Below, piece by piece: positions 4,838 to 42,208 of a DNA stretch of 42,208 bases. The first letter of the stretch is position 1; every line of letters starts with the position of its first letter. Position numbers and translations under genes: made by a program. Source of the DNA: a virus; the IMG/VR virus record IMGVR_UViG_3300045284_000133, positions 1-42,208 of that record, one strand, 5' to 3'. The notes beneath the pieces are model-generated. The model was not told where the DNA came from. It searched no databases and saw only the letters and a program-made list of their open reading frames with translations.

Positions 4838-6276
4838 TACGCATCGCTGGGCTTCTGGAAAACCAACACAGGCTCCGTGCCTATTTCTTGCGCCCCGCGC
4901 CCAAAACGGTAATGCAGTTGGAATTCTTCGGTTCGTACATACGCAAACCCAGCCTTTACGGCGGCCTGCATAGTCCAGTCAATCATTGGCACCTTCTCAG
5001 GGCCGTGTTTGTAGTCCATCACATTCAGCACCGCATACCTGCCAGGTTTTAGGGCAGCGTATTGCAGGCGCAGCATCGGTTCCAGGAACCCCGCCCGCCA
5101 GGTGTCGGCGGTGGTGTAGCGCACGTCACTCTGCGTCGGCTCGTCACAATAACGCTCACGGGCAAAGTAAGGTGGGCTGGTAAACGCAAAGTCTGCACGG
5201 CCTGCCAGCACGTGCGGGTACATGTCCTCGGCGGCCTCACAGTAAAGCTCCACACGGTCACTGTAGCCCAGGTCGGCGGCCATACGCAGGTTGGCGGCGT
5301 GCGTTGCAGTCGACGGGTCTATGCCAATGTAACGGCCACGGGGGCAGGCGGCCATAAAGCCCACCAGGCGGCCACCGTACCCTGTCGACGTGTCCAACAC
5401 CACGCTGTCGGGCTGGCAGTAGCCACGGTAGAACATTGCGGCAAACCCTGGGCGGAAGTTGGTCGGCGGCGCGGTGCCAGTAAGGGACAGGGCCGTAAAG
5501 TAATGGTCCGGTATACCGTCGCCCACGTCCAGGCTAACACGCAGGGCCTTACGCAACAGGCGGTCATCGTTGAACACGTCCAGGGTGGGTTTGGCGTGGC
5601 CCGTGCGGGCGGTGTAGCGGTGCGTGTGGTAGGTGTCGGCCACCTGGTAACCCGTGCTGGTATGCGCCAGTTGGTCTATGCCCATTTGGGCCAGTTCGTT
5701 TAGCTCCTGCATACAAACGTGCAGTGGCTGGTGGCGGTAAGGGAAGCCCGTTTTGCGGAACCAGTCAAAGGCCGCGTCTATTACCTGGTCGTCGGTGTAG
5801 ATGATGCTGGGCGGCGTACCCTGGCGCACGGCCACGCCTGCAGCGGTCAGGGCTTTGGTAAACATGCGGGCCAGGTCGGCGTTTTCGTTTTCAATGGCAT
5901 CGGTCAGGGCCTTCAGCATGTCGCCGTCGGTTTTGGCCATTGCGCCCAGCGGGTCCAGGGTGGCCAGCACGAAGTCTGCTTCTTCGTCGTCCAGGTCGAC
6001 TATTAGCACGGGCACTTCTGCGTCGGGCGTAGTGGCTGCACGCAGGTGACCGTCCAGCAGCAGCAACTGCCCGTCCACCTCGCGTGCTATTAAGGCGTCG
6101 GCGTAGCCCACTTTGGCCAGGGCGCCACGCAGGGCCTGCACCTGGAATTGCGGGTGCCGCCGCCAGTTCTTAGGGTTCTCTACCAGGTCGCCCGCCCGCA
6201 CGTGGCGCAGTTCTTTGACACGGGAACGCGGGGTTAGGGTCGGGGCGGGGGCGTCGGGTTTAGGTGTTGCTGCCAT
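4837..6276 (-). CDS. ParB-domain / DNA methyltransferase fusion
   Basis: A 479-residue two-part protein. Residues about 20-120 form a ParB/Srx-like N-terminal domain (LVENPKNWRRHP ... LLLDGHLRA). The C-terminal half is a SAM methyltransferase with SAM loop LDTSTGYGGR near residue 300, GIDPS after it, and catalytic TSPPY near residue 365. The order is SAM loop first, then TSPPY, the reverse of the common ParB-N6/N4 fusions, but matching a phage methylase family with FAFSSPPYF followed by DE.TQS. The likely activity is adenine-N6 or cytosine-N4 methylation. It lies immediately before terS, so marking of packaging or restriction sites is plausible but inferred. Confidence 0.85.
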   Translation of the reverse strand: MAATPKPDAPAPTLTPRSRVKELRHVRAGDLVENPKNWRRHPQFQVQALRGALAKVGYADALIAREVDGQLLLLDGHLRAATTPDAEVPVLIVDLDDEEADFVLATLDPLGAMAKTDGDMLKALTDAIENENADLARMFTKALTAAGVAVRQGTPPSIIYTDDQVIDAAFDWFRKTGFPYRHQPLHVCMQELNELAQMGIDQLAHTSTGYQVADTYHTHRYTARTGHAKPTLDVFNDDRLLRKALRVSLDVGDGIPDHYFTALSLTGTAPPTNFRPGFAAMFYRGYCQPDSVVLDTSTGYGGRLVGFMAACPRGRYIGIDPSTATHAANLRMAADLGYSDRVELYCEAAEDMYPHVLAGRADFAFTSPPYFARERYCDEPTQSDVRYTTADTWRAGFLEPMLRLQYAALKPGRYAVLNVMDYKHGPEKVPMIDWTMQAAVKAGFAYVRTEEFQLHYRFGRGAQEIGTEPVLVFQKPSDA

Positions 6277-15469: not shown

Positions 15470-16306
15470 TCATTTCTTGGCTCTAATGTCGTCCGCTAGT
15501 GCCTGTGCCCATTCACTAAACGCCGCAATGCACTGCTCTAACTGGTCGTCGTTTAGCTCGTCGCGGCGTTTGCAGCCTGTCGTGCGTTCCATTTGCGCCT
15601 GTATGCCCCCGTAGGCCTGGCCCAGGTCGCGTAGTTGCTGTATTTCCTGCAGCAGCCTGGCCTGCAGTTGGGCGTGTCGGTCCTCCGTTGCATCGTCGTT
15701 GGGGGCAACCTCTGCCGCCGCCAGGTCGACAGGTGGGGCAAGTGTTAACGCCGCATTATCCAACGCCACGGCCTCAATTGCATAGGGCTTAATCGGCTCC
15801 ATGTTGTGCGGCGCAATAGATTCCACCTCGGTTTCGTCCAGCAGCCCCAGGCCCAGTATTGACAGGGTGGCGCGCCTTTTGCCTTTTGTCTCGCACTTCA
15901 TCAGGGCGTTGGCCAGGGCCTCGCCCTTTAGCCCGCCTATGCTGACCGCCCCTATACTTTCCTCCGCCCTGCCCGTCGGTAACATAGCCCGCACCTTTAC
16001 CACATACACGTCCTGTATCTGTTCGCGGGTCACCACCTCCCGTGTCACCTGGTGTATCCGCGCCAGTTGGTCGGTGCAGGCCCTGCTGGCATACAGTATT
16101 TCCTTGCCGTTCAGCCGCAACGGCAAAAAGGGCTGCCCCAGCGGGTCCAGCCCCAGGCGTTCGCAAAACTGGCGGTAGTAGGCCACCTTCTGTTTGGGCG
16201 ACAGGCCCGACAGGTCACCTTTAAGGGCCAGGGATTCGTAAACAGATTCTGTAACCGTTGCGGGCACGGCGGCCCCGTCGACTTTGGCAATTTCTTGTGT
16301 TGGCAT
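15470..16306 (-). CDS. Probable ssDNA-annealing recombinase (RecT/Rad52-like superfamily)
   Basis: A 278-residue protein. The N-terminal half has YYRQFCERLGLDPLGQPFLPL, LNGKEILYASRACTDQLARIH and a later KCETKGKRRATLSILGLGLL-DETEV block, a conserved pattern in phage proteins that occupy the recombinase slot of early operons. The last 90 residues are a helical, acidic tail. It should coat single strands and promote annealing for replication and recombination, together with host proteins. GGGAG lies 7 bases before the ATG. No partner exonuclease was seen. The subfamily (RecT, Erf or other) cannot be settled by eye. Confidence 0.65.
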   Translation of the reverse strand: MPTQEIAKVDGAAVPATVTESVYESLALKGDLSGLSPKQKVAYYRQFCERLGLDPLGQPFLPLRLNGKEILYASRACTDQLARIHQVTREVVTREQIQDVYVVKVRAMLPTGRAEESIGAVSIGGLKGEALANALMKCETKGKRRATLSILGLGLLDETEVESIAPHNMEPIKPYAIEAVALDNAALTLAPPVDLAAAEVAPNDDATEDRHAQLQARLLQEIQQLRDLGQAYGGIQAQMERTTGCKRRDELNDDQLEQCIAAFSEWAQALADDIRAKK

Positions 16307-16336
16307 ATAATGCTCCCGTTGTTTCCTTGTTTAGGT

Positions 16337-16378
16337 AAAGGCCGCCAGGGCTATGCGGTAAGGGTCCTGGCGGCCTTT
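16337..16378. terminator. Strong 13-bp hairpin between SWIM and recombinase genes
   Basis: AAAGGCCGCCAGG (16337-16349) pairs perfectly with CCTGGCGGCCTTT (16366-16378) over a 16-base loop. On the minus strand it ends in only TTTA, so termination may be partial. It sits 8 bases after the SWIM-protein stop and before the recombinase start, where it could reduce read-through from the repressor promoter or act as an RNA processing or antitermination site. Confidence 0.5.
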
Positions 16379-16385
16379 GCTTTGT

Positions 16386-16700
16386 TTACATCAGCAGGTC
16401 GGTGTCCGCTGCCTGCATTAACTGCAATTCCTCGGTAGTCTTAACAAACGTGCGGGCCGCCGCTGCAATATGCAGGCAAACCCGCCCAGCCTGGCCCGCC
16501 AGGCAGTCACAGGCCGCCACTATTTCGTCCTCAGCGTTTTGGAAAATCTCCACCAGGTGCCACCTGTCGGGGCTGCTGCCACTGCGCACCCTAAACAGGT
16601 GCCCCTCAGTCACCAAAAGCTCGGCCTGCGCCTTTAGCTTCTCAGCCCGTGCCCACGCCCGCTCAAAGTCGTTGCGGTGCCTGCTAATATTGATCATCAT
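16386..16700 (-). CDS. SWIM zinc-finger protein (104 aa)
   Basis: A 104-residue protein with an N-terminal helix of about 28 residues, two beta strands (HLFRVRS, RWHLVEIF), and a SWIM motif: Cys64-x-Cys66, eight residues, Cys75-x-His77. SWIM domains bind DNA or proteins; small SWIM proteins are common in phage early regions, where they sit beside recombination genes. Here it lies between repressor and recombinase. The role is unknown but DNA metabolism is likely. AAGGGG precedes the tandem ATGATG start. Confidence 0.7.
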   Translation of the reverse strand: MMINISRHRNDFERAWARAEKLKAQAELLVTEGHLFRVRSGSSPDRWHLVEIFQNAEDEIVAACDCLAGQAGRVCLHIAAAARTFVKTTEELQLMQAADTDLLM

Positions 16701-16722
16701 AACCGTTGCCCCTTGTTGTTGG

Positions 16723-16995
16723 TTAACGGGCGCGCGCAGCCAGCCACTCGCCCGTGTTGTTTAGCGTGGTCGGCGTCACGACGGCCCGCCAGTCCAGCCC
16801 AAAGTAGTCTGCAGCCTTGCGTATTAACGACAGGCTGGGCGCATGCCCGTGTTCCAGTCGCCAAATGGCCTGCCTGGACACGCCCAGGGCATAGGCCATA
16901 TGCACCACCGACACGCCCCTGGCCTGGCGCGCCGCACGCAGGGCCGCAAACCTGTAACCACTGCCCACGTTTTCAATTGATCCTGGTGTTCTCAT
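16723..16995 (-). CDS. Cro/CI-type HTH repressor (XRE family, 90 aa)
   Basis: Residues 16-71 form a classical five-helix XRE DNA-binding domain: RFAALRAARQARGVSVVHMAYALGV, then SRQAIWRLEHG as turn and recognition helix, then SLSLIRKAADYFGL. There is no C-terminal peptidase domain, so LexA/CI-style autocleavage is absent. The ATG at 16995 lies 8 bases beyond a -10 box, so the transcript is nearly leaderless, as with lambda cI from PRM. The ATG also lies inside a GTAAC-N7-GTTAC-type operator, implying autoregulation. It likely controls the dispersed early promoters listed below. Confidence 0.8.
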   Translation of the reverse strand: MRTPGSIENVGSGYRFAALRAARQARGVSVVHMAYALGVSRQAIWRLEHGHAPSLSLIRKAADYFGLDWRAVVTPTTLNNTGEWLAARAR

Positions 16996-17032
16996 AACAA
17001 CGTATGTTACACCACCCGCCCGCCCCTTGCAA
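16994..17032 (-). promoter_or_regulatory. Leftward early promoter and operator (repressor gene)
   Basis: Minus strand: TTGCAA at 17032-17027, 17-base spacer, TAACAT at 17009-17004. The start codon follows 8 bases later. Operator ATAACAACGTATGTTAC (16994-17010, plus-strand reading) covers the -10 and the ATG. A further GTTAC half-site lies at 17063-17067. Confidence 0.65.
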
Positions 17033-17109
17033 CTAAATACACCACTTACCAGGTGCATATATTGTTACAGGCCACCCAAAAATAAATTGCATTTTCTTTT
17101 GCCTGACCC

Positions 17110-17138
17110 TTGCAATACGTAACGGCCTTTGTTACTAT
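17110..17138 (+). promoter_or_regulatory. Rightward early promoter P1 with operator
   Basis: TTGCAA (17110-17115), 17-base spacer, TACTAT (17133-17138). Operator GTAACGGCCTTTGTTAC occupies 17119-17135. An AT-rich block CCCAAAAATAAATTGC lies upstream at about 17076-17091, like an UP element. It faces away from the repressor promoter, forming a divergent switch region 16996-17109. Confidence 0.75.
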
Positions 17139-17187
17139 GCAGGTGTTGGAAGCAAACGCAAACACAAACTTGAAAGGAACAACGACA

Positions 17188-17754
17188 ATGAACCGCACAA
17201 TAAAAATAGGCAACCTGGACGACGTACACGGGTGCAAACGGTGCAACGCCACGGTGTACGTTGCCCGCACCCGCAGTGGCAAGGAGTGGATTGTGGAGGT
17301 CGACTTTGACGACAATTGCGATGCCATTTTTGAGGTGGACGGCGCGAACCTGCCCACGGTGCAGCATACGCTGGGCCGTTGCAATGACCGCGCAAACTTT
17401 GGGGCGCCCCCAGTGGTCGTGGACCGCGCCCAACGGGCCGCAGAGGTTAACGCCGCCGCCGCCCTGGGCCTTACCGAGTTTGACCGCATAGTACTGAAGG
17501 TTAACGCACGCGAGGCACGGCGCGCCGCCGACGCAGCCAGGGCAAAGGCCCGCCGCCAGCACGAGCGCACGTACAGGCAACTGCCCAGTGGCCGCGCCGA
17601 CGGCCTGCGCGCCCCGCGCCCCACCGACTTTGCGGCCTACGTGGAACCTGTTGAAACGCCTGCAGAGCGTGACAGGCGCGAGCGTGCCGAGTACGAGGCT
17701 ATGTCCGACGCCGAGCGCGAGTTTAGGGCCGAACGCCTGAGCGACTACGAATAA
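17188..17754 (+). CDS. Early protein with zinc-ribbon-like start and charged tail (188 aa)
   Basis: ATG at 17188 follows GAAAGGA at a suitable distance, about 50 bases downstream of promoter P1. The N-terminal 75 residues include CKRC (16-19) and two more cysteines in a beta-rich module (TVYVARTRSGKEWIVEVDF). Residues 100-188 are a highly charged Arg/Glu/Ala helix, likely a coiled coil, ending very acidic. First gene of the rightward early operon, so perhaps a host-takeover or regulatory protein. No family recognised. Confidence 0.75.
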   Translation: MNRTIKIGNLDDVHGCKRCNATVYVARTRSGKEWIVEVDFDDNCDAIFEVDGANLPTVQHTLGRCNDRANFGAPPVVVDRAQRAAEVNAAAALGLTEFDRIVLKVNAREARRAADAARAKARRQHERTYRQLPSGRADGLRAPRPTDFAAYVEPVETPAERDRRERAEYEAMSDAEREFRAERLSDYE

Positions 17755-17767
17755 CTGACCGACACCA

Positions 17768-17785
17768 GGGGGCCGCAAGGCCCCC
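17768..17785 (+). other. GNRA-capped leader hairpin upstream of a ribosome binding site
   Basis: GGGGGCC, loop GCAA, GGCCCCC: a perfect 7-bp stem with a GNRA tetraloop, 4 bases before the Shine-Dalgarno AAGGAG of the next gene. No U tract follows, so it is not a normal terminator. An identical hairpin lies at 22223-22240. Confidence 0.6.
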
Positions 17786-17799
17786 GACAAGGAGCAACC

Positions 17800-18153
17800 A
17801 TGAAGCACTACGCATTTAGCACCGACCCAAAAGACATTTGGGGCGAACCCCTTAGTAAGGGCTACGGCCCGCCCGCCACCGTGGACAACTTGCTGGCCCG
17901 CATTAACGACATTGAACGCGCCCACCTGCAAATAACTGCCCGCCTGGTGGCGCAGGTCGAAGCCCTGGAAAAGGCCAACGGCCTGCTACGGTCCAAACTG
18001 GTTTGGGTCACGGGCGAGGTGCCAGGGGTCCAGGCTGCACTGGACGAGTGGCAGGGCTACATTGACGGGGCCACCACAATAACGCCCGACTACGGCCAGG
18101 CCGACGATGCCCAGCAGGCGCGCGAGCGCGGGGGCAACCCTGACAGGCCCTAA
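17800..18153 (+). CDS. Early hypothetical coiled-coil protein (117 aa)
   Basis: A 117-residue protein with a polar N-terminus, a coiled coil at about 28-75 (LLARINDIERAHLQITARLVAQVEALEKANG) and an acidic, disordered tail. AAGGAG lies 7 bases before the ATG, just after the GNRA hairpin. Likely co-transcribed with the upstream gene. No family recognised. Confidence 0.75.
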   Translation: MKHYAFSTDPKDIWGEPLSKGYGPPATVDNLLARINDIERAHLQITARLVAQVEALEKANGLLRSKLVWVTGEVPGVQAALDEWQGYIDGATTITPDYGQADDAQQARERGGNPDRP

Positions 18154-18162
18154 ACCTGGCAC

Positions 18163-18191
18163 TTGACAGGTGTTGCGTTTTATGTTACACT
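18163..18191 (+). promoter_or_regulatory. Rightward early promoter P2 with variant operator
   Basis: Consensus -35 TTGACA (18163-18168), 17-base spacer, TACACT (18186-18191). Operator variant GTTGCGTTTTATGTTAC at 18172-18188 keeps the right half and changes two bases on the left, so repressor affinity may be lower here. Confidence 0.7.
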
Positions 18192-18209
18192 GTCCTGGTA
18201 GTCAACCAC

Positions 18210-18235
18210 GGGGCGGCCCCACCGCCGCCCCTTTT
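18210..18235 (+). terminator. Attenuator-like terminator in the P2 leader
   Basis: GGGGCGGC (18210-18217) pairs perfectly with GCCGCCCC (18224-18231) across loop CCCACC and runs into TTTT. It stands about 20 bases after the P2 start point and before the ribosome binding site of its gene, so most transcripts would stop unless antitermination, coupling or leaky read-through acts. Confidence 0.65.
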
Positions 18236-18256
18236 AAACACGTAAAGGAACAACGA

Positions 18257-18502
18257 ATGCCAAAAGCAAAAGTAGACAAACTGACAAAGGTTGAGGTGGG
18301 CCAGGTCGTCAAAGTCGACCTGCCAGGCTACACCGAAATGACCGTCAAACCACCGTGCGAGAATAAGACTAGCGGCACGTGGTACTGCGCCACGCACAAA
18401 ATGGCCTTTATGAACCAGTTGCAGAAGGACATACATATAGGCAACGGCAAGGCCCACCAACTGGCCTGGGCGTGTTTTGAACACGGCCTGGAACAGCCCT
18501 AA
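18257..18502 (+). CDS. Early hypothetical protein (81 aa)
   Basis: An 81-residue basic protein starting at ATG 18257 after AAAGGA. A beta-rich front (VEVGQVVKVDLPGY) precedes CENKTSGTWYCATHKMAF, with two cysteines and histidines that could hold zinc, and a late CFEHG. A promoter and attenuator are dedicated to this single gene, suggesting tight dosage control. No family recognised. Confidence 0.7.
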   Translation: MPKAKVDKLTKVEVGQVVKVDLPGYTEMTVKPPCENKTSGTWYCATHKMAFMNQLQKDIHIGNGKAHQLAWACFEHGLEQP

Positions 18503-18570
18503 CCACTAACCGACCTGGGGCGGTGCCCGTGGCCGCCCAAAAATAAATTGCAAATACTTTGCCTTGCCCC

Positions 18571-18599
18571 TTGCGCCCCGTAACAAGTTACGTTACTGT
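18571..18599 (+). promoter_or_regulatory. Rightward early promoter P3 with operator
   Basis: TTGCGC (18571-18576), 17-base spacer, TACTGT (18594-18599). Operator GTAACAAGTTACGTTAC at 18580-18596. The upstream block CCCAAAAATAAATTGC (about 18537-18551) repeats that of P1. Confidence 0.75.
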
Positions 18600-18605
18600 A
18601 ACTGT

Positions 18606-18623
18606 GCTGGCAATGAAGCCAGC
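18606..18623 (+). other. Leader hairpin of the P3 transcript
   Basis: GCTGGC, loop AATGAA, GCCAGC at the very 5' end of the P3 transcript. The P5 transcript has the same hairpin at 20854-20871 (GTTGGC, AATAAC, GCCAGC) with a G-U pair preserving the stem. This suggests a selected 5' cap-like stabiliser or regulator. Confidence 0.5.
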
Positions 18624-18648
18624 CACGAACCCCTGAAAGGAACACGCA

Positions 18649-19446
18649 ATGTTTTACAACAAGAACCAACAGCCCGTTAGCCTGGCCGCCTACGCAGCGG
18701 TTAACGCCACCAACGCCGCGCCCCAGGTCAGCAGCAGGTACAGTTTTATACCGACGACCACGGCCATTAACATACTGGGCGACCACGGGTGGCAGCCCGT
18801 TGCGGTCCAGCAGGCGCGCGCACGCAAGGCCGCCAACGTTGGCTACCAAACCCATAGCCTGAGGTTCCAGAACACCAGCATGGTGCAGGCCCTGCAGGTC
18901 GGCACGACGATACCGCAAATTGCCCTGCGCAATGCCCACGGGGGCGAATCCGCGTTTGTGCTGGACCTGGCACTGTTGGAGCTACGCTGCACCAACGGCC
19001 TTATGGCCGACCTGGGCGGGCATGAGCAAATGCGCATTACCCACCGCAAGTTCGACCCCAGCGGGTTTGAGGCCGCCCTGCGCGAGTTGTGCGGGTACTT
19101 TGGTGACCTTATGGGCACGGTGGACCGCTGGCGCACGGTGCAGGTGCCTGGTGCTGCTGCCAGGTCGTTTGCCCAGGATGCCATTAACCTGCGTTGGGAC
19201 GGCGCACAGTACAGCGTCGACCCCACCGACCTGTTGACGGCAACCAGGTACGAGGAAAAGGAGTCGACCCTGTGGAACGTGTACAACGTGGTCCAGGAGA
19301 AGTTGCTAAAGGGCGGTGTTGAGGCCCGCCAACTGCAGGGCAAGCAAAGGGTGCGCAGGTCGCGCAGCATAACGAACATTTACGCCGACGCCAGGCTAAA
19401 CAAAGGCCTGTGGCACCTGGCCAGTACGCTGGAAGCCACCCTATAA
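18649..19446 (+). CDS. DUF932-family phage/plasmid-like protein (265 aa)
   Basis: A 265-residue member of the DUF932 / phage-plasmid-like (TIGR03299-type) family. Recognisable parts are the central FVLDLALLELRCTNGLM strand-helix, the HRKFDP turn and a C-terminal LWNVYNVVQEKLLKGG followed by a basic RRSRSI and ARLNKGLWHLA helix. Members are widespread in phages and plasmids; function is unresolved, though DNA recombination or repair has been suggested. It has its own promoter P3 and its own terminator, so it is an independent transcription unit. AAAGGAA precedes the ATG. Confidence 0.85.
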   Translation: MFYNKNQQPVSLAAYAAVNATNAAPQVSSRYSFIPTTTAINILGDHGWQPVAVQQARARKAANVGYQTHSLRFQNTSMVQALQVGTTIPQIALRNAHGGESAFVLDLALLELRCTNGLMADLGGHEQMRITHRKFDPSGFEAALRELCGYFGDLMGTVDRWRTVQVPGAAARSFAQDAINLRWDGAQYSVDPTDLLTATRYEEKESTLWNVYNVVQEKLLKGGVEARQLQGKQRVRRSRSITNIYADARLNKGLWHLASTLEATL

Positions 19447-19470
19447 CGGGGCAGGCAAACCAGCCACGCA

Positions 19471-19498
19471 GCCCTGGGGCCGACCCCAGGGCCTTTTT
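19471..19498 (+). terminator. Intrinsic terminator after the DUF932 gene
   Basis: GCCCTGGGG and CCCCAGGGC form a perfect 9-bp stem with a 4-base loop, followed by CTTTTT. It ends the P3 transcript 25 bases after the stop codon. Confidence 0.9.
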
Positions 19499-19616
19499 GC
19501 GTGGGGCTGGTCGTTTTTTGTCGCGTCACGGCCCCTTTGTAAGTTACTATAAATGTTGCATTACTGGCCCGCCATTTACGTGACACGCCGACGGGCCAAC
19601 CGATTGACACAAAAAG

Positions 19617-19634
19617 TGGGGCACCCAGGCCCCA
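19617..19634 (+). other. Leader hairpin before the winged-helix gene
   Basis: TGGGG and CCCCA pair over an 8-base loop, directly before the AGAAAGG ribosome binding site. The gap 19499-19651 otherwise holds only a weak promoter-like TTACTATAAA. Confidence 0.4.
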
Positions 19635-19651
19635 GAAAGGGTTTGTTTTGT

Positions 19652-20302
19652 ATGAGTTACGCTAACACCACTGCGCCTAATGCGCAAGAGTATACGTACC
19701 TGCCCAGCGTCGGGTTTAGACAAGTGGCCGCCAAGGTGCGCGGGGTCTACCGCAACCTGCAGGGCCGTACCATAACAAAGGGCGACCTGGCCACACTGTG
19801 GAAGCTCAGTGCTGGCGGGTTTAGCACCTACTACCGCGCCGCCGCAGACTTTGGCCTGCTGGACATAGACGGCGACAACGTGACACTGACCGCCGACGGT
19901 TACGAGCTTTGCCTGTTGGAGGTGGACAGCCACGCCTGGTTGCAGGTCGCCCGCCGCTGCGTCGACAAGTCGGCGGCCTGTCGGGCAATGTTTGACAGGT
20001 TTACGATAGACGCCACCGAACACGACATTAGGCTGGACCTGGGCCTGCGCAACCTAAAGGCCGAACCCATTAACAGGTTTGTGGCAGTCTTTAAGGGCTG
20101 CGTGGACATTAAACGCAAGGCCGACGGCCCCGCCGCCGACACGCCTATAACCGTGGGCCAGGGTCCAACGCCTAACGACGTTGCCCGCCTGGACACGCCG
20201 CCAGTGGACACGGTGCCCGTGCCCGAACCCGCCACCTTCCGCGCCAGGGTCATACTGGTGCTAACCGAGTTGGGGCTGTACGACCAACACCCACCAGAAT
20301 AA
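19652..20302 (+). CDS. Winged-helix-like early protein (216 aa)
   Basis: ATG at 19652 with AGAAAGG about 11 bases upstream. Residues 35-90 (TITKGDLATLWKLSAGGFSTYYRAAADFGLLDIDGDNVTLTADG) have the helix-helix-strand layout of a winged helix like DUF5343; a second helical part follows at 95-160 and then a Pro/Asp-rich linker and a final helix. It may be a DNA-binding regulator, for example a late-gene activator, but this is inferred from fold only. Its promoter is unclear: TTACTATAAA near 19543 resembles a -10 with no good -35. Confidence 0.65.
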   Translation: MSYANTTAPNAQEYTYLPSVGFRQVAAKVRGVYRNLQGRTITKGDLATLWKLSAGGFSTYYRAAADFGLLDIDGDNVTLTADGYELCLLEVDSHAWLQVARRCVDKSAACRAMFDRFTIDATEHDIRLDLGLRNLKAEPINRFVAVFKGCVDIKRKADGPAADTPITVGQGPTPNDVARLDTPPVDTVPVPEPATFRARVILVLTELGLYDQHPPE

Positions 20303-20315
20303 TTTGCATTGGCCC

Positions 20316-20344
20316 TTGACAGCAGTAACGGGCAATGTTACTGT
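20316..20344 (+). promoter_or_regulatory. Rightward early promoter P4 with operator
   Basis: TTGACA (20316-20321), 17-base spacer, TACTGT (20339-20344). Operator GTAACGGGCAATGTTAC at 20325-20341. AT-rich GAATAATTTGC lies just upstream, at the end of the previous gene. Confidence 0.75.
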
Positions 20345-20424
20345 GTACTTGTTGGTGGCCATACAGGCAACACCTATTACGTGGTCTGCAGCGTAGCCCG
20401 CGCAGGCCTGGTGGCCACAAACAA

Positions 20425-20461
20425 CGGCCCCGCCCAGTGCAAGGAACAAGGGGCGGGGCCG
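20425..20461 (+). other. Perfect 11-bp leader hairpin in the long P4 leader
   Basis: CGGCCCCGCCC (20425-20435) pairs with GGGCGGGGCCG (20451-20461) over a 15-base loop. The P4 leader runs about 140 bases to the ATG at 20493, unusually long for this phage. No U tract follows. A GTG-started frame reads through the leader to 20481 but has no ribosome binding site, so the leader is more likely structural. Confidence 0.55.
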
Positions 20462-20492
20462 CAGTTAAAAACACGCAATTGAAAGGAACGCC

Positions 20493-20804
20493 ATGAGCTT
20501 GATCGAAACGCCGCAAGAAGTCAACACCACAGAACTGGCCCGCCAGTTAGACGCCGCCCAGCACGACATAGACCTGGCCTTTGCCCGCCACCAGGCCAGC
20601 ATAGACGCCGCCTTTAAGAAGTCCGCCGACGAGTTGGACACGCTGGTGCGCCGCCTGCACCTGGCCATTAACAGGCAGGTGCCGCACGACGGCCTTTGTG
20701 ACAGGTGCAACGACTTTGCAGGTGACTGCCTGGAAGTCGACAGGCCCAACCCCAGTAGCTACAGAGCCACCGATAGCGTTTGCGGCCCGTGCCGCCAAAA
20801 ATAA
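20493..20804 (+). CDS. Early coiled-coil / zinc-ribbon protein (103 aa)
   Basis: Residues 8-62 are a charged coiled coil; residues 67-100 hold CDRC (69-72), a lone Cys79 and CGPC (97-100), a likely zinc site. GAAAGGA lies ahead of the ATG. Its stop codon lies inside the AAAAATAAATTTGC block that forms the upstream element of promoter P5. Similar small zinc proteins fill this operon. No family recognised. Confidence 0.75.
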   Translation: MSLIETPQEVNTTELARQLDAAQHDIDLAFARHQASIDAAFKKSADELDTLVRRLHLAINRQVPHDGLCDRCNDFAGDCLEVDRPNPSSYRATDSVCGPCRQK

Positions 20805-20818
20805 ATTTGCAATTACCC

Positions 20819-20847
20819 TTGCGTAGTGTAACTGGCTTTGTTACTAT
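20819..20847 (+). promoter_or_regulatory. Rightward early promoter P5 with operator
   Basis: TTGCGT (20819-20824), 17-base spacer, TACTAT (20842-20847). Operator GTAACTGGCTTTGTTAC at 20828-20844. Upstream element CCAAAAATAAATTTGC at about 20795-20810 overlaps the end of the preceding gene. Confidence 0.75.
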
Positions 20848-20853
20848 ACCTGT

Positions 20854-20871
20854 GTTGGCAATAACGCCAGC
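20854..20871 (+). other. Leader hairpin of the P5 transcript
   Basis: GTTGGC, loop AATAAC, GCCAGC at the start of the P5 transcript, matching the P3 hairpin at 18606-18623 with one C-to-U change that still pairs by wobble. Confidence 0.5.
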
Positions 20872-20895
20872 CACTAACGCAAGGGGGCAACGACA

Positions 20896-21216
20896 ATGCA
20901 GAAGGCAAACGCAGTTAAGGTCAGCACGGAGGTGGGCATGCTGGCATTTATGCCCACCAGGCTGTTTATTGACACCTTGGCGGTGGGCGACCAGGCGCCC
21001 AATGCTTTTGGGCGGGTGGGCAGGGTCACGGCCATAGCCTACCGTGGCGTGGACACCAACGGGGCCGCCTACGTCGGCTATTACGTAACCCACGGGGCCG
21101 ACCTTACGGGGCGCGCGTCCTGCAGCCTTAAAGAGGGCCAGGTGCTACGTAGCCTGCGCCTGTGCCAGGTGCTGAACAGTGCCGAAATTGACGCACTAGA
21201 AGGGTACTTGCCGTAA
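20896..21216 (+). CDS. Early hypothetical beta-rich protein (106 aa)
   Basis: A 106-residue protein driven by P5, with AAGGGGG upstream of its ATG. The middle (GRVGRVTAIAYRGVDTNGAAYVGYYV) reads as a small beta barrel, followed by a C-terminal helix (NSAEIDALEGYL). Its stop overlaps the next start (TAATG). No family recognised. Confidence 0.75.
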   Translation: MQKANAVKVSTEVGMLAFMPTRLFIDTLAVGDQAPNAFGRVGRVTAIAYRGVDTNGAAYVGYYVTHGADLTGRASCSLKEGQVLRSLRLCQVLNSAEIDALEGYLP

Positions 21217-21395
21217 TGAACACAGCAGCCCCGCACTACTACACCGCCGAGTGCCGCCGTTGCGGTGGCACTTTTGAAACGCCCGAAGCCGAAACGGTGG
21301 AGGGCTTTGTTTGCGACCAGTGCCAGCACGACGACCTGGCCGACGACCAGGAATGGTTGGCCGAATTGGAAGGAGAGGACGAAAATGCACTTTGA
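21216..21395 (+). CDS. Small zinc-ribbon protein (59 aa)
   Basis: Fifty-nine residues with CRRC (13-16) and CDQC (33-36), a complete two-knuckle zinc ribbon, and a very acidic tail (DDLADDQEW ... EGEDE). Coupled to the upstream gene by TAATG and to the next by an 11-base overlap. Acidic zinc ribbons of this size can bind RNA polymerase or mimic DNA, but the role here is unknown. Confidence 0.7.
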   Translation: MNTAAPHYYTAECRRCGGTFETPEAETVEGFVCDQCQHDDLADDQEWLAELEGEDENAL

Positions 21396-21753
21396 CAAAC
21401 AGGCCCTGGACAGGTGGATTGAGCGCGAGGACCCCAGCCTGGCCGACGACGACGACGGGCAGCCACCACCAGAGGTGGACGTGCCCGACGTATACGACCA
21501 ACTGCAGGCGGCCCAGGATGCCCTGGTGGCCACCAGGCACGCACTAGCCGAGGCCCGCGCCGACCTGGTGGCACTGGCTGGGGAGAAGGAACGCACTATG
21601 CTGGGGGCAGGCCTGGGCCTGGCCGAACGCCTGGCCCACATTGACAGCATGCCCAGGGGCTTTTGCTACTGTGGTGACTGTGCCAACGCCACCAGCATAC
21701 GGATACTGGCCCGCATTTGGACCCAGCACCGCGCAAAAGAAAATGCAGAATAA
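21385..21753 (+). CDS. Early hypothetical protein with C-terminal CxCxxC (122 aa)
   Basis: A 122-residue protein starting at ATG 21385 after GGAGAGG. A very acidic N-terminal third (SLADDDDGQ) leads into a helical coiled coil (DQLQAAQDALVATRHALAEARADLVAL) and a C-terminal CYCGDC motif at 94-99. Third gene of the P5 operon. No family recognised. Confidence 0.7.
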   Translation: MHFDKQALDRWIEREDPSLADDDDGQPPPEVDVPDVYDQLQAAQDALVATRHALAEARADLVALAGEKERTMLGAGLGLAERLAHIDSMPRGFCYCGDCANATSIRILARIWTQHRAKENAE

Positions 21754-21766
21754 TTTGCGTTTGCCC

Positions 21767-21795
21767 TTGCGCCCAGTAACGTAGCCTGTTACTAT
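21767..21795 (+). promoter_or_regulatory. Rightward early promoter P6 with operator
   Basis: TTGCGC (21767-21772), 17-base spacer, TACTAT (21790-21795). Operator GTAACGTAGCCTGTTAC at 21776-21792. GAATAATTTGC just upstream repeats the P4 arrangement. The leader after the -10 (GTGTTGG, then ACAAACTTGAAAGG) closely matches that of P1. Confidence 0.75.
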
Positions 21796-21841
21796 GTCGG
21801 TGTTGGACGAAACAAACACAAACTTGAAAGGGCAAACGACA

Positions 21842-22210
21842 ATGACCACGCAAACCACAGTTAAGTTTATGATTGACACCCCGCAGGGTGTAGACGTTAT
21901 TAACGCAGTTTTAGACGCCAGGCCAGGCACCGTTTGGGCCTTTGGCCACCGCGTCCTGGCAGTGGCTGCTGGGCGGGTGCAGGTGCAAACCAGCCGTGAC
22001 AGTTTTAACGGTGGCACCACCCAGTGGGCCGACGCCGCAATGGTGGGCATTATGGCCGACGACACCGACACGTTGCTGGCGGCCTTTGATGCCTGGGCGG
22101 GTGTCGCCCGCAGCAGCCAGGCCGTGGCAGCCCTGGAAGCCCAGGCGCCTGGTGTTAACTGGGGCAGGTCGGGCCAGTTGATTGGCGGCACTGACTGGCG
22201 CAGGGCCTAA
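21842..22210 (+). CDS. Early hypothetical protein (122 aa)
   Basis: ATG at 21842 after GAAAGGGC, driven by P6. A 122-residue alpha-beta protein (VKFMIDTPQGVDVINAVLDA, then a strand pair and an Ala-rich helix). No cysteines or membrane segments, no family recognised. Confidence 0.75.
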   Translation: MTTQTTVKFMIDTPQGVDVINAVLDARPGTVWAFGHRVLAVAAGRVQVQTSRDSFNGGTTQWADAAMVGIMADDTDTLLAAFDAWAGVARSSQAVAALEAQAPGVNWGRSGQLIGGTDWRRA

Positions 22211-22222
22211 CTAAAAACAAGT

Positions 22223-22240
22223 GGGGGCCGCAAGGCCCCC
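22223..22240 (+). other. GNRA-capped leader hairpin, second copy
   Basis: GGGGGCC, GCAA, GGCCCCC, identical to 17768-17785 and again directly before the ribosome binding site (GAAAGGAAAG). It could set a processing or stability boundary between co-transcribed genes. Confidence 0.6.
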
Positions 22241-22256
22241 GAAAGGAAAGGTTAAA

Positions 22257-22463
22257 ATGTCTTTTGTCAGACTACTAAAAGGCCGCCAGGCTGTCTACGT
22301 AAACCTGGACAACGTGTTGCTGGTCGTAGCGGACACACGCGAGGACGGGCAGTATATAGTCCAGGTCACCTACGTGGGCGGCAACGTTGCCACCTACTAC
22401 GCCGCCGACGCCTACGCCCTGGTTAACGCCCTTAACATTCAACTCGACGGGGAGGACGCATAA
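22257..22463 (+). CDS. Early hypothetical small beta protein (68 aa)
   Basis: Sixty-eight residues: RLLKGRQAVYVNLDNVLLV, then YIVQVTYVGGNVATYYA and a short helix, a beta-sheet-rich layout similar to small phage proteins that report flagellar or cell-wall-like context only by chance. GAAAGGAAAG precedes the ATG. Its stop touches the next ATG. No function known. Confidence 0.7.
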   Translation: MSFVRLLKGRQAVYVNLDNVLLVVADTREDGQYIVQVTYVGGNVATYYAADAYALVNALNIQLDGEDA

Positions 22464-22718
22464 ATGCCCACGCCAAACTATGAACAGGTCGTCGTCCACG
22501 GTACGGTTATGCGCCGTATAGGCGATAGCTTTTATGAGCCGCAGGAGTGGGGCCTGTGGTCGGTGCAGCGGTACAGCCCAAAGTGGCGGCAATGGGAACG
22601 CTGGGGCGATGCCCTGTACAGCACCAGGCCCGCCGCCGACGCCGCCAAGGCCAGGCTGGACATTGAATTGTTTGGTGACCAGTGGCGGGTGGTCCACACT
22701 GGCCCGCCTAACCAGTAA
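22464..22718 (+). CDS. Early hypothetical protein, last rightward gene (84 aa)
   Basis: Eighty-four residues, tryptophan-rich (seven Trp), with a beta front and helix at 60-70. It begins one base after the preceding stop and three bases follow. Its end overlaps the convergent minus-strand membrane gene by 11 bases, marking the boundary of the early and late blocks. No family recognised. Confidence 0.7.
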   Translation: MPTPNYEQVVVHGTVMRRIGDSFYEPQEWGLWSVQRYSPKWRQWERWGDALYSTRPAADAAKARLDIELFGDQWRVVHTGPPNQ

Positions 22719-22854
22719 AGAACAGCCCCGCCGTAAGTAGTGCCAACCCCGCCGCCACCAGGTTAACCCTTGGTGGCGTTGGTGTATAAAAGGCCGCCAG
22801 CAGGAAACAAACAAACGCCGCCACCAGGAACAGCAAGTGCCAACTAAAGGCCAT
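22708..22854 (-). CDS. Tiny two-helix membrane protein, holin-like (48 aa)
   Basis: Forty-eight residues: hydrophobic helix 4-22, a short PTPPRV turn, second helix 31-46. AAGGGGGG lies 4 bases before the ATG. This hairpin topology fits class II holins, and its place at the end of the late operon suits lysis timing, but no endolysin was found nearby. Inside it, CGCCACCA and TGGTGGCG (22753-22778) form a stem that might also stop transcripts converging from both sides. Confidence 0.55.
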   Translation of the reverse strand: MAFSWHLLFLVAAFVCFLLAAFYTPTPPRVNLVAAGLALLTAGLFFTG

Positions 22855-22868
22855 AATGCCCCCCTTGT

Positions 22869-23183
22869 TTACTGGCTCTTTAAAGCCCCCACGTCGGTTA
22901 CAAATTCGCGGAAGGCCTTATCGCTAAACGGCCACTCGGCGCGTTCGACCTTGCCCGCCAACACCACCGCTTCCTCCGCCGTCAACTCTACGCTGCCATT
23001 GGCAGCCTCAATTTTGGCCGCCAGCCCTTCGGCCTCATCCATGTCACTGGCCGCAAACCCGCGTTTAGGGGCGCCCTGGGCGTCCAGCGGTGCAACGTTG
23101 CGCACAATTTCCGCCAGTTGCACCTTGTAGTCCAATTTCATTCCGTTGCGTAAAACCAACTGCTTAAACTCCAATGTGACCAC
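22869..23183 (-). CDS. Hypothetical late protein (104 aa, GTG start)
   Basis: The GTG at 23183 follows AAGGAGG at a 9-base distance; an upstream ATG at 23222 has no ribosome binding site and lies against the tRNA-like element, so the GTG was chosen. The protein has a beta front (TLEFKQLVLRNGMKLDYKVQL) and an Ala/Glu helical body ending in WPFSDKAFREFV. It lies between the tail spike and the membrane protein. No family recognised; a lysis or tail accessory role is possible. Confidence 0.65.
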   Translation of the reverse strand: MVTLEFKQLVLRNGMKLDYKVQLAEIVRNVAPLDAQGAPKRGFAASDMDEAEGLAAKIEAANGSVELTAEEAVVLAGKVERAEWPFSDKAFREFVTDVGALKSQ

Positions 23184-23223
23184 TGTTCTGTGCCTCCTTA
23201 ATTTGCGTAACTGGTTGGACATG

Positions 23224-23318
23224 AAAAGGGGCCAGGTCCTGCGCGGGGATCGAACCCGCTTCCCCCTGCTCCTACAAGTTCAGAATGCAGTTAAAAGAAC
23301 GCAAGGGCCTGGCCGCCC
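23224..23318 (-). tRNA. tRNA-like element with intact T arm, degenerate or D-arm-less
   Basis: On the minus strand GCGGG-TTCGATC-CCCGC is a textbook T arm with GTTCGATCC. Upstream, GTTCTTT pairs with GCAGGAC (6 of 7 incl. wobbles) as acceptor and is followed by U8 A9; then about 32 bases hold a CTGCA/TGTAG stem around TTCTGAACT. A normal D arm is absent. An outer 7-bp helix GGCCAGG/CCTGGCC encloses everything. It could be a D-arm-less tRNA, a decaying tRNA, or a tRNA 3'-end copy serving as an attachment site. Anticodon cannot be assigned safely. Confidence 0.45.
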
Positions 23319-23321
23319 TCC

Positions 23322-26300
23322 TTAGACGTAGCACGGCGACACGTACCACTGGTGCAGGCGCGCGTCACAGGTAATAAACACGTCACGCTGCCCCGACAGG
23401 CCCGCGTCCAGCGTTATGCTGGTGTACATATTGTTTATGAGGTCGGAGCCGCCCGTGCGGGTAATGAACAACTTGTTGGTGGCGGTGCCACCACCACCCG
23501 CTGGCAGGTCACGGCGCAGCATAATGAAGTGCCACCGCTTGCCGTCCCACGTCGACGCCGCCCCCGCCGTGTCGGGCAACTGCAGGGTAAGGGTGGCCCC
23601 CGTGCCACCGTTGTAGGTGTCAACTATGACCGTCTCCTGGTTGGCGTCCAGGGTTTCCGTTTGCGTGCCCCCGTAGCCACCAAAGGGCTGCCAAATGCGC
23701 ATAAAGCCCTGGCGGCCACCAAACGTTTGGACCATGCCCTGGTTGTTTACTGAAAACTTTGTGACACCAGAATTTAGGCTGGCAAAGGGGCTGTTAATGT
23801 TTACTTGTATGCCATTGTCGACCACCGCCGAGCTTGTAATGGCGTAGGGCGAAGGTGCGTTTGTAAACTTTGGCAGGGCGTTGGTGGTAATTGTGCCCGT
23901 GCCCGCCACGCCACTGCCACCCGTTGGTGGTGCCACCCAGGCCAATTGCCCGCTGGTTTGGACCTGCAGCAGGTAGTTGTTGGCAGGTATAGACCCAGGC
24001 CACAGGTAGGCAATGCCGTGTACGGTCAGGTCGCCTATGTTGCTGACCGCAAACTGCACGGTGCCATTGACGCTGGCCTTTAGCAGGGGCAACGACGTAG
24101 TGGCCATGTTTATAAACAGCCCTACGCAACTGTTGGGGCTGCCCAGCATTACGCACGTGTCCTCACTGGTGGCCACCAGCAGCCTGCTGAAGCTCGGGGC
24201 GGCGGGGTTGCGGGTGTTGCCCAACAGTTCAATGCCCACGTAGCTGCAAATCTGCGTGCGGCAATGGTCGCCTGACTGGAAGCAATTCCTATCGCCGTAA
24301 ATTAAGAACCTGGTGGCCTCGCCCGTGCTGAAGGCCGTGGCACTGGGTATAAAACCAAACGCCCTGGGGCCTGGCGGCGGTGTCTCTGTGCTGCCCGCTG
24401 GGTAAATAAAGGCCCCGCTGTAAAAGTATGCGGCGTTGAACTTCTTGCTAGGGCTGCCCAGGTTAATGCTGTTGGCCGCCGTGCCGTCGGCGTTAAAGGC
24501 AGGCAACACCCAGGTGTTAATGGCCACGCCGCTGGTGCTGTGGTCGCCCGCCGTCGTCTCTGACAGGTTGGACAGGAATACATTGGCACCGCCACCCGTG
24601 CCCCCTGGGGCGTCGACCCACGCCAACACGGGCGTGCCTGCTGTGGTGTTAAAGCCCAGGTATTTGTAGGCCCCGCCAGTCGGGTAGACGGTAATAGGCC
24701 CTGGCCACGTATAGTTGACGCCCCTAATGATGCCCAGGCCGCCGTCGGTGTCCACCCTAAAGGTGTAGTTGGTAAGTGCGCCACCTGGTGCGCAAACGGC
24801 TATTGGGTAGTCGGTGGTGTCCGGATACCGCACCCGTAGGGCACTGGTGAAGTAGGCCCGTTTAGCACCAAACGCCGCGTGGGTCACGTCTGCATTTACG
24901 CGCGCCTGTATTTCGCCCCCAGTATTTACTGGGTCATAAATGCCTACGCTGCGATGCTCAAAACGCCAAACCCCGTAGGCGTTGCTGGGCCTGCCCACCA
25001 GCCACAGTTGCGCCAGGTCGGCCACCGCTGCATCGCCTATTACCTGCAGGTCGCGCGAGTTGACATAGACGATTGCGCCGTCCTGCGTAACCTGACTGTT
25101 GCCCAGGGTGCTGCTGGGCGTGGTGCCTGTAAACAATGGCAGGGTGTTAACGGTGCCACTACCGCCCACGCTGCCCGTGGCCAACTCGACCCACGACAAC
25201 AGCAGGGCGCCAGGGGCACTACCGAAGTACGTGGCCTGCAAAAACCTGGGCGGCACGGTGCTAAATATTGGGCTGGGCCACTGGTACTGGACACCCTTGA
25301 TGATGCTGAGGTCGCCCGCCTGACTTATAGCGAAGTTGGGCGTGGTGCTGTTGTATGGCGCAACCTCAAAAGCGTTGCCCAGGCCCGTAACGTTGGCACT
25401 GGTTGCTTTGATGCGCACGGCGCCCTTAAACCAACTATGGTGCGACCCCAGCACCACAGCAGGCACTGCGCCCGCCGACACCAGGCCCAGGGCCACCTGC
25501 ACCTCGCCACCCGTGTTAAAAGAATCCTCCACGCCTGGGTTGGGCGGCCCGCCTGACCACGCCCTGTTTTCGTACCTAATGGCGGCGTTGGCGCCTGTGT
25601 ACGAACGCATGTAAAAGTCGGACATGTCCTGGCCGTCGTTTAGGCGTTTAAACAGCAACTGGGTGCAGTCTATTTGCACCGTACCGTTGCCGCCTGGCCC
25701 CGTGCGGTCCTCTATTGCCGAGTCGACTAGCTGGAAGGTTGGCGGCGTGTAGGGTGGCGTGCCGTAGCCCACCAGGTCCCACCTGGGTATGCGTAGGTGG
25801 GTGCCGCCAAGGGTGCTGGACACGTTGCCCGCGCCACCGCCCCAACTTAGCAGCCCACTGCCATTGTTGGTTAGCACGCCCACCGCGTGGGCTGTTGGCC
25901 AGGTGTAGGCCCTGCCCTTTATGTAGTCCAGGTCGCCGTCGGGGCCTACCACAAACTTTGGCAGGCGCAGGGTGGTAGACAGGCACTGTATAAAGTTGCC
26001 CGTGTAGCCCGTGGCTGGGGTCGCGTAAATTGTCAGGCCGTGTTGTGCAGGCGTCGACCCCACGGTAACCAGGTATAGGGCACTAGCCCCCCAACTCTTA
26101 CTGCTGTTGTTTTCCGTGTACGTTTCGTTGTAGGTCAGGCACCCGTTAACGCCGTCATTCCACAACTGCCCCCTGGGGCCGACACCTGCAGCAGCCTGCA
26201 GCAGTACAAAGGTGCCAGCACTACCGCCCACCGTGTCGTTGGTTGGCCCAAACCTCACAATGTTGCCCGTGTCACAACTGGCCAGGTGGCAATAGTTGGT

Positions 26301-29300
26301 CGTGTAGTAAAGGGTGTTGATCTCGCGCGCGTTCTCGACACGCAGCCCGACACCCAACACCACCAAATCGCTGGGTGTTGCTATGGCGGGGCCGTTAACC
26401 ACGTTGTCGCCCGTGGCGTTAAAGATTGCGAACCTGTCTTTAGTGCCCGAAATGATAACGCCGCTGCTGGTGCCGCCTGGCGGGTCCAACCAGCCCAGCA
26501 CGACAGGCGGGCCTGCGTTGGTGTAGCCCAGGAACTTTACAGGGTGGGTTGAGTCAATTGGCGGTATGGTGCCCGTGGGCCATTCATACGCCTTGCGCCT
26601 AATAACGGCCAGGTTGCCGTCGGGGCCGACTACAAACTGGTCTAGGCGCAAGTTGCTGGCCGTGCAATTTATGAAGTTGCCAGCGTAGCCCGTGTTGGGC
26701 GTGGCGTGTATGGTTAGGCCGTGCTGGTTGGGCGTGGTGCCAATGGTCGCCATGTACAGGGCACTGGCGCCCCAACTCTTGCTGGCATCGTTTACGGTGT
26801 AGTCGGCGTTGTAGGTCAGGCAGCCCGACACGCCATTGTTCCACAACTGCCCACGCGCGCCGCCCGCTGCCTGCAGCAACACCAGGTTGCCGTTAAAGCC
26901 CCCCACCGTGTCGTTGGTTGGCCCAAACTTTACTATGTTGTCGGTGGTGCATTGCGCCAGGTCGCAATACCAGGCCGTGTAGTACAGGGTGTCAAAGGCC
27001 TTGCTGTTTTCGACACGCACGCCCACGCCCTGGAACACCACTTCGCTGGGCGTGGCAATGGCGGGGGCGTTAACCACAGTGGTGCCAGGCGCAGCCCCAA
27101 ACATTGCAAACTGGTTGGGCGTGCCTGGGCCTATACCGCCGCCCGTGGCAATGGTCGTGTACACGCCGCCGCTGCCCAACTTTAAAACGCCTGCAATGTT
27201 AACCAACGAGAAGGCACCAGCGGGCGGGGGCGGGGGCGGAAACTGCCCCACGTCTATGGGCCTAAAGTACAGCGGTGCGTACAGGCTGCCACCGCGCTCC
27301 TGCGTTATGGGCTGGTCGGCGTCAAAGGTCGCACTAATACCAGGCTGCAGGCGCACGTTGGCAACCCTGAAAATTGGGCTGTTGCCAGTGCCTGCATTGC
27401 TGAACCTTATGCGGAAGAACCTGCCAGTAATGCCTGGGTCCAGGTTTGTCTTTATGCACAGGCGCAACCACTGCCCAACGGGCATGCCATAGGCTGGCGC
27501 GCCCGTTAGCGTCACGCTGCGCACCGTATAGCCCGCCGTGGCCGTGCGCACTTCAATGGTTACAACTGTGTTGTTGTCGGTGGCCCCGCCCGCGCCGTTT
27601 GACTCTATGTAATGATCCCAGGCCAGGGTCCACTGGCCCACCTGCCTGCTATCGGGTATTGGCACGTCCTGGGTCAGTACGTCGACCTGGCCCGCGCCCA
27701 GGGCCTGCGTGTTAACCCTTACATACCGCTCCCACCGTGCAGGCAGCAGGGCGTAAGGGTAGTTGGGCTGGGTCACCACGCCAGCGGTGGGCGTTGTCCA
27801 ACCCACCAGGCCGTCCAAAAAGTTGGGGTTGGCAATAACGTTTGTCCATCGCTCGTCCCACAGTTGCAGGGTGTTGGTTTGGGCGTTGTCGAAACTTAGG
27901 CTATGGCAGCCAGGCCCAATAATCACTGGCTCGCTGCCCGCCGCCACGGCGCCTGCAGTGTTGGCCAACCCTGCTATCCAGTCAGGCGCATAGCAATTCT
28001 CAAACTCAAACCCTTGGCAGTAGCCCAGCATCTGGAAGGCCGTACCACCGCCTGACTGCCCCAGGTAGGTGCCACGCACTTTAACGCCCTGGCAGTCCTT
28101 TATGCGTATGCCAACACCGTGGCCACTGGGCGTTATGGGCGGGTCTATGTCAATGCTCCCGCCCGTGTGGCTGCTGTCAATGCTGACCGCACGGCAATCT
28201 ATGAGGTCAATGGCGGCCCCGCCTTCGCCACCCGCATCTTCCTCCCACAGGCCGTCTATGCGCATAGCATCGGTATGCTCCACACGCACGCCGCCCGCAT
28301 CGCCCGTGTAGCCCACCCAGTTGCCTTGGTGCGTGCCCCCGCGTATGGCCACGTTGTTGGCGTTATGGATGAACACATTGGCCAAACAGGTTTGGTAAAC
28401 AATGACCGTAAAGGGTGGGCGCGGGTCACCTGGCAGGCCTGTGCCTGCTGACTGAAAGACTGGCATTGAAATGGTGCAGGCCGTGCTGCTCTGCACCGAT
28501 TCAATCATGGTCACGTGGGTGCTGTTGTTAACGCCTGGCCCGTCGACCAGTTTTATAATGCGGCCCACGTCGGTGCCCGTAAGGCCGCCCGCCACGGTTA
28601 GGCTGCGCGGTGCAGCGGCGTTAATGACACCACCGCCCAGTGTCTTTAAGGGGTCCGCCCCGCCGCCAAAGTCCTGTGGCCCGCTGTACACCACCAGGCT
28701 GTTAACGATTTCAATGCTGTTGTCTTCCTGCTGACTTGTGCCCCGCACCGTGGCGTTGCCCACCAGGGCAATGGCACCTGACCTGTTGTGGTAGCCCTTT
28801 ATATTCGTCAAAAAGGCAGTTTGCAGATTGTCAGACCACAGGCCCCAACGGCCCCAGCCCTGCAGCAGCACGTTTTCCACCCGCACGTTGCCCGTGGACG
28901 GCCCAGGCACCCCGCCGTTGGTGGACGTAGCAGTAAAGGCCAGGCCGTGGCCCATGCTGGTGGCCCTAATGCCCTCCTTGCTGTCGTCGGGCACGCACCA
29001 CAGGCCCAGGTTGCGTATGACCGCATCATAGACGCCACTGTTAAGGTTGCCCGTTTGCTGGTCGCCCACCAGTTGCAGGCCGTTGCCGTCGTGGTTGCAA
29101 ACAATGGCCGTGCGCCATTCGCCATCGCCCTCAATAATCACCTGCTGGTTTAGCCCCGTGCCCGTTGCAGGCCACAGCAACTTGCGCCGCACCCAGTAAC
29201 GGCCCTCAGGCAGCCACAGGTGGCCACGGTTATTTATGGCAGTCTGCAGGGTGTCGGTGTCGTCGTGGCAAAAGGCACCTGGGTTACTTGTCCAGGTGGG

Positions 29301-42086: not shown

Positions 42087-42208
42087 GTCAGGCGCAATTG
42101 CGCAGCCTTTTATGTGCGTCGGAGCGGTAATATCACAGGCCGTTGCCTGCTGTCCAGCCGTTTGTCGTAGTACCGCGTGGTGCGCTGGCACTGTGGACAC
42201 CGCGCCGT
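42082..42208. repeat. Terminal direct repeat, right copy
   Basis: Exact second copy of bases 1-127. Joining the two removes the window ends and places the prohead protease directly downstream of the Com-like gene, restoring a continuous late operon. Everything encoded here is annotated at its left-end coordinates except the protease start. Confidence 0.9.

Follow-up and report, generated by a model that had tools for sequence, protein, structure and literature searches.

Can several early promoters of a phage be governed by one small protein through a single, repeated operator? This question is raised by a 17-bp inverted repeat, GTAAC-N7-GTTAC, found in IMGVR_UViG_3300045284_000133, an unclassified bacterial virus whose entire record of 42,208 bases (the window) was analysed. 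The repeat would serve as operator for a single DNA-binding protein that acts as a dimer, most likely a 90-aa HTH protein; this protein probably represses five early promoters jointly and also keeps the expression of its own gene in check. The position, register, and statistics of the sites strongly support a predicted shared-operator regulon made up of the five early promoters and the HTH start region. From the sequence, we infer that the HTH protein is the binder, that it acts by repression rather than activation, that the promoters concerned are early, and that the protein regulates its own gene.

The phage and its gene layout

Positions 1–127 and 42082–42208 constitute an exact direct repeat of 127 bases at the two ends of the record. 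The record therefore most likely represents the whole genome of a phage, ~42.1 kb long and assembled as a circle. Leftward genes encode packaging and structural proteins (terminase, portal, prohead protease, capsid, and tail) as well as replication functions, and small rightward genes form a block that extends from 17188 to ~22.7 kb. The phage is an orphan: its portal protein has a best identity of ~31% to known phages; its terminase, capsid, replication, and HTH proteins have no relative in IMG/VR; and the first 25 kb of the genome gave no DNA match in the phage collection. Among the scanned proteins, many of which lack any match, we recognised neither an integrase nor a partition ATPase nor a cleavable repressor, and positions 16000–23400 contain no match to an Rfam family.

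Several other features of the genome are recorded here. On the minus strand, a 479-aa protein (4837–6276) has a ParB-like match at its N terminus as well as a DNA-methyltransferase match (PHROG 620 and 498), and a second putative methyltransferase lies at 916–1623. A 2249-aa open reading frame without a PHROG match occupies 23322–30071 (minus strand) in the tail-gene region. The 278-aa protein encoded at 15470–16306 (minus strand) has neither a PHROG nor a Pfam match; it has 28 related loci in IMG/VR, with identity of up to 60%, as well as matches in two Campylobacter phage records, and is possibly a recombination (single-strand annealing) protein. At 16284–16392 (plus strand), the best promoter match of the region (TTGGCA-16-TATAAT, 11/12) has a predicted start that lies a short distance before a hairpin of terminator-like form and very high stability (z −5.5); this may represent a small RNA of ~65–75 nt or an antisense promoter together with a terminator that serves the leftward gene at 16386.

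Operator sites and the proposed regulator

GTAAC-N7-GTTAC occurs exactly five times in the 42.2-kb record, at 17119, 18580, 20325, 20828, and 21776, and nowhere else; all five copies lie in the short intergenic gaps between early genes. Base composition predicts 0.021 copies against the five found (Poisson P 3.6e-11), and sequences simulated with a first-order Markov model contained 0.09 copies on average and at most 1. This dyad is the most enriched of all 5-base inverted repeats with spacers of 0–20 bases, and following correction for the roughly ten thousand dyad tests, the probability of chance is still ~4e-7. Where up to two mismatches are allowed, 20 matches to the motif are found against 17.5 expected; this is no enrichment, and hence, only strong sites are counted.

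A symmetric operator matrix places six sites—the five exact copies and a one-mismatch copy at 16994—at scores of 20.6–22.5, followed by 18172 at 15.7 and then by 33626, inside a gene, at 15.3. When each site is scored by a matrix built without it, all six outscore every non-site. The preliminary description listed seven sites (18172 as a variant), all given as GTAAC/GTTAC, and named a clear gap between these and all other hits as support. Five of the seven have that sequence, 16994 departs from it by one mismatch and 18172 by two, and the gap holds for the five exact sites and 16994 but not for 18172. The sequence of the latter (18172–18188) is GTTGC-N7-GTTAC, and a matrix built without it scores two non-sites higher, which leaves it in third place. 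It lies within a rightward promoter, TTGACA-17-TACACT (18163–18191), that looks real, but as an operator it is doubtful. The regulon should be counted as five sites plus one rather than seven.

Coding regions, in which matches of equal quality would speak against a regulon, hold no exact copy of the operator. Only two one-mismatch sites fall inside genes, 33626 and 35783, and the full matrix ranks them as its best two non-sites; their number is near the 0.7 per genome expected by chance, and they were not accepted as operators. A two-mismatch candidate for an eighth site, 19543, was likewise rejected, its dyad being out of register with the adjoining TACTAT.

Each exact operator is embedded in a longer conserved unit, CCCTTG-N6-GTAAC-N7-GTTACTRT-N5-TGYTGG, of which the dyad had been recognised earlier, though its full extent was missed (CCC before the −35 element and TGYTGG at the predicted start). 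All five modules are on the plus strand: module 1 (17107–17149; operator 17119–17135) precedes the gene at 17188–17754, module 2 (18568–18610; operator 18580–18596) the DUF932 gene at 18649–19446, module 3 (20313–20355; operator 20325–20341) the gene at 20493–20804, module 4 (20816–20858; operator 20828–20844) the gene at 20896–21216, and module 5 (21764–21806; operator 21776–21792) the gene at 21842–22210.

The proposed regulator is encoded on the minus strand at 16723–16995, at the left edge of this array and not, as first described, at its centre. It is an HTH_31/HTH_3 (XRE-type) protein, with Pfam scores above the curated cut-offs (HTH_31, 37.6 bits against 27; HTH_3, 32 bits against 23) and a PHROG match to transcriptional regulators. 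The HTH domain stands alone in the 90 aa, with no C-terminal S24 peptidase or dimerisation domain, and structure prediction from the single sequence gave a mean pLDDT of 51, too low for the model to be usable. The HTH_3 fold class includes lambda-type repressors, the dimers of which bind sites of such length.

The one-mismatch operator (16994–17010) covers the start of the HTH gene. It reads ATAAC-N7-GTTAC on the plus strand and GTAACATACGTTGTTAT, followed by G, on the minus strand, with the HTH ATG starting in the last two bases of the operator. Its leave-one-out score is 17.6, compared with 16.1 for the best non-site, and the probability of a one-mismatch site arising by chance in that gap of ~190 bp is ~0.003. 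The site also overlaps the −10 element of a possible, weakly evidenced leftward promoter, TTGCAA-17-TAACAT (17004–17032, minus strand), which was read from the sequence, agrees with the consensus at 8 of 12 positions, and scored below the threshold of the promoter scan. The predicted HTH transcript would have no leader at all or one of just a few bases; in keeping with a leaderless transcript, the HTH ATG is not preceded by any visible ribosome-binding sequence. Binding over the start codon and this possible promoter would result in negative autoregulation.

The site at the HTH gene could, however, mean that this gene is itself a target, with the dyad bound by another early protein of the phage or by a regulator of the host, and with the HTH protein acting elsewhere. 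Since family matches are lacking for most early proteins, the binder could be an unrecognised DNA-binding protein among them; the gene at 17188, which is divergent from the HTH gene, matches no regulator family. We nevertheless consider a different binder rather unlikely, for the HTH protein is the only recognised regulator adjoining the array (and the sole XRE-type regulator recognised among the scanned proteins), and its own start carries the site. A host regulator might be expected to have similar promoter modules in bacterial genomes, but the core together with the start-site block has a single match in the genome collection, inside a coding gene of a chromosomal contig; ~0.2 matches were expected, as estimated from the size of the collection, and the match was treated as chance. 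The 90-aa protein is thus most likely the binder and, as predicted from the sequence, the repressor.

Within the collections searched, neither a close relative of the HTH protein nor a further copy of the module came to light. In the phage collection, the HTH protein has no relative at E 1e-5, and looser limits gave weak matches only. Four of the closest annotated weak matches are on alphaproteobacterial plasmids, adjoin ImmA/IrrE genes, and have different recognition helices, with no GTAAC-N7-GTTAC upstream; therefore, they do not test specificity. The core CTTG-N6-GTAAC-N7-GTTACTNT is present in 45 stretches of IMG/VR, one match each; the DNA examined contains no second exact operator, and the open reading frames of these stretches include no convincing HTH relative (best E 2.8), so these matches were treated as chance or unrelated promoters. 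The 28 loci with relatives of the 15470–16306 protein contain no significant HTH relative (best E 0.028) and no comparable promoter-borne dyad when simple 5-base dyads are counted; some of them have enriched dyads of other sequence. The DUF932 relatives in IMG/VR (L005 and L006) bear no resemblance to this phage.

Promoter architecture and mode of action

The five modules can be read as sigma-70-type promoters, with a −35 element TTGNNN, a 17-bp spacer, and an extended −10 element TGTTACTRT, the TG of which is present in four of the five. TTG and TACTRT are 17 bp apart in every module, and the right arm of the dyad overlaps the −10 element in the same register throughout. This fixed register and spacing had been ascribed to six rightward copies; it is borne out in five, the sixth (18172) having a 17-spaced promoter but a doubtful operator. 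With the G of TGYTGG as the predicted transcription start, the operator spans about −26 to −10. It is situated between a −35 and an extended −10 element that have the optimal separation of 17 bp, a location well suited to repression; a dimer bound to the single operator in the spacer and −10 of each promoter would obstruct RNA polymerase at the five promoters simultaneously. Since the core promoters look complete, we favour repression over activation. Such a repressor may keep a lysogen silent, as CI does, or may only turn early genes off in the lytic cycle, in the manner of Cro. The proposed simultaneous switching of six early transcripts would, accordingly, be retained for five and is doubtful for that at 18172.

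The pattern TTG-N6-GTAAC-N7-GTTACTNT-N5-TGYTGG fits exactly at all five sites and was absent from 100 shuffles, and CCC lies directly 5′ of TTG in each module. A matrix of the whole unit, built from the five modules, scores these at 63–69, 18172 at 13, and all else below 7. The promoter part alone—with the left arm, the spacer, and two right-arm positions masked—scores 28–42 in the leave-one-out test, against a best background of 13. The arms of the dyad are 100% identical across modules and the 7-base spacer 33% identical; the stretches between the conserved blocks share 28%–36% identity, which is near random, and the copies are therefore old or independently shaped rather than recent duplicates. 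The conserved blocks themselves appear to be held by selection.

Uniformity of this kind could also be expected if the modules were mere copies of a strong promoter, arising by duplication or from the needs of RNA polymerase, and the dyad lacked a dedicated regulator. In favour of this reading, part of the extended −10 element falls within the right arm, CCCTTG and TGYTGG are conserved outside the dyad, and the promoter and operator parts are never separate on the rightward side. The low identity between blocks argues against recent copying, however, and GTAAC in the spacer is no sigma-70 element. A sigma-70 promoter has no need of this left arm, nor of the T and C in the right arm, and the dyad thus imposes a further constraint. 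Since the two parts never occur apart rightward, only the site at 16994 is independent of the module, and there the dyad is found without the rest of the module and on the opposite strand. We regard mere promoter copying as quite improbable. Highly improbable is a third explanation, in which an activator binds the dyad, or a phage-specific polymerase or sigma factor uses the whole 43-bp unit as its promoter, and all members of the array are turned on jointly. The exactness with which the unit is conserved does resemble phage-specific promoters, but ordinary −35 and −10 elements at 17 bp need no activator, an activator centred near −18 would be unusual, and the scanned proteins include no recognisable polymerase or sigma factor.

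The transcripts that the HTH protein would repress may be separate units rather than one operon, because a strong intrinsic-terminator-like hairpin (19471–19497, plus strand) lies 3′ of the DUF932 gene and strong hairpins are found in the module 3 leader and in that of the promoter at 18172. Given the first of these hairpins, the next gene probably needs its own promoter. Between one and three small genes lie under each module. Predicted leaders measure 40–43 nt in four of the five modules, consistent with one kind of transcription unit; that of module 3 is ~142 nt long, with a large hairpin inside. Strong GC hairpins at 20420–20465 and 18209–18235 (plus strand) are located in the 5′ leaders of genes 20493 and 18257, respectively, and the second, which is followed by TTTT, could be an attenuator. 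An identical 20-base sequence, GGGGGCCGCAAGGCCCCCGA, is present at 17768–17787 and 22223–22242 and forms a hairpin just 5′ of the ribosome-binding sites of genes 17800 and 22257.

A more specific proposal, possible but on balance doubtful, is that a Cro-like 90-aa protein alone would be the off switch for an early region of separately promoted small genes that share a five-block promoter, with TGYTGG as a second shared control element; the phage itself would do so with no integrase, partition ATPase, or cleavable repressor that can be recognised.

Relation to known phage regulons

Streptomyces phage phiC31 has 17-bp conserved inverted repeats at many early promoters, to which one repressor binds, and its layout would be the closest parallel to that proposed here. 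The phiC31 repressors are large proteins, whereas the regulator proposed here is of 90 aa. The present system would share with lambda CI and Cro a dyad of 17 bp, a protein of the HTH_3 class, and an operator placed on the start region of the regulator's own gene. Lambda, however, has two clustered tripartite operators, and a switch of its type has clustered operators between two divergent regulator genes, whereas single, widely spaced operators occur here in at least six places; nor does the 90-aa protein possess the C-terminal domain of a self-cleaving, CI-like repressor. The preliminary description was right to set this phage apart from lambda, although P1, SP-beta, and the cluster A mycobacteriophages already provide examples of a single repressor with scattered operators. 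As in such dispersed-operator regulons, the site is repeated at promoters far above chance and is also found at the gene of the proposed regulator.

The C1 repressor of P1 has 22 scattered 17-bp operators, some of which control the repressor's own promoters (PMC8546580), and the arrangement proposed here would be similar in having one repressor and scattered 17-bp sites that include its own gene. P1 operators are asymmetric (ATTGCTCTAATAAATTT) and distributed genome-wide, whereas those described here are inverted repeats within a 4.8-kb early block (PMC8546580). In SP-beta, MrpR is the master repressor and binds a repeated element, SPBRE, at the promoter regions of around ten genes (PMC10516654); a repeated element in several promoter regions, with a single proposed binder, is likewise seen here. 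MrpR has a tyrosine recombinase fold and a 15 bp element, in contrast to the small HTH_3 regulator proposed for this phage (PMC10516654). The cluster A mycobacteriophage L5 has one repressor and many dispersed sites, some of them in early promoters (PMC6550527). The L5 sites are 13 bp long and asymmetric, and the majority lie outside promoters and block elongation (PMC6550527); the operators described here differ from such stoperators in being symmetric, with all convincing copies at promoters.

A regulon of this kind is therefore known, and what is new here is its own site sequence, the very small size of the proposed regulator, and an unusually uniform set of promoters. The regulon predicted from the sequence of this orphan phage would place five nearly standard promoters under one small protein and, if confirmed, would add an example in which a minimal HTH protein controls many promoters. 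In that event, the five natural module variants, with their free spacers and fixed arms, would also constitute a ready set for measuring operator specificity.
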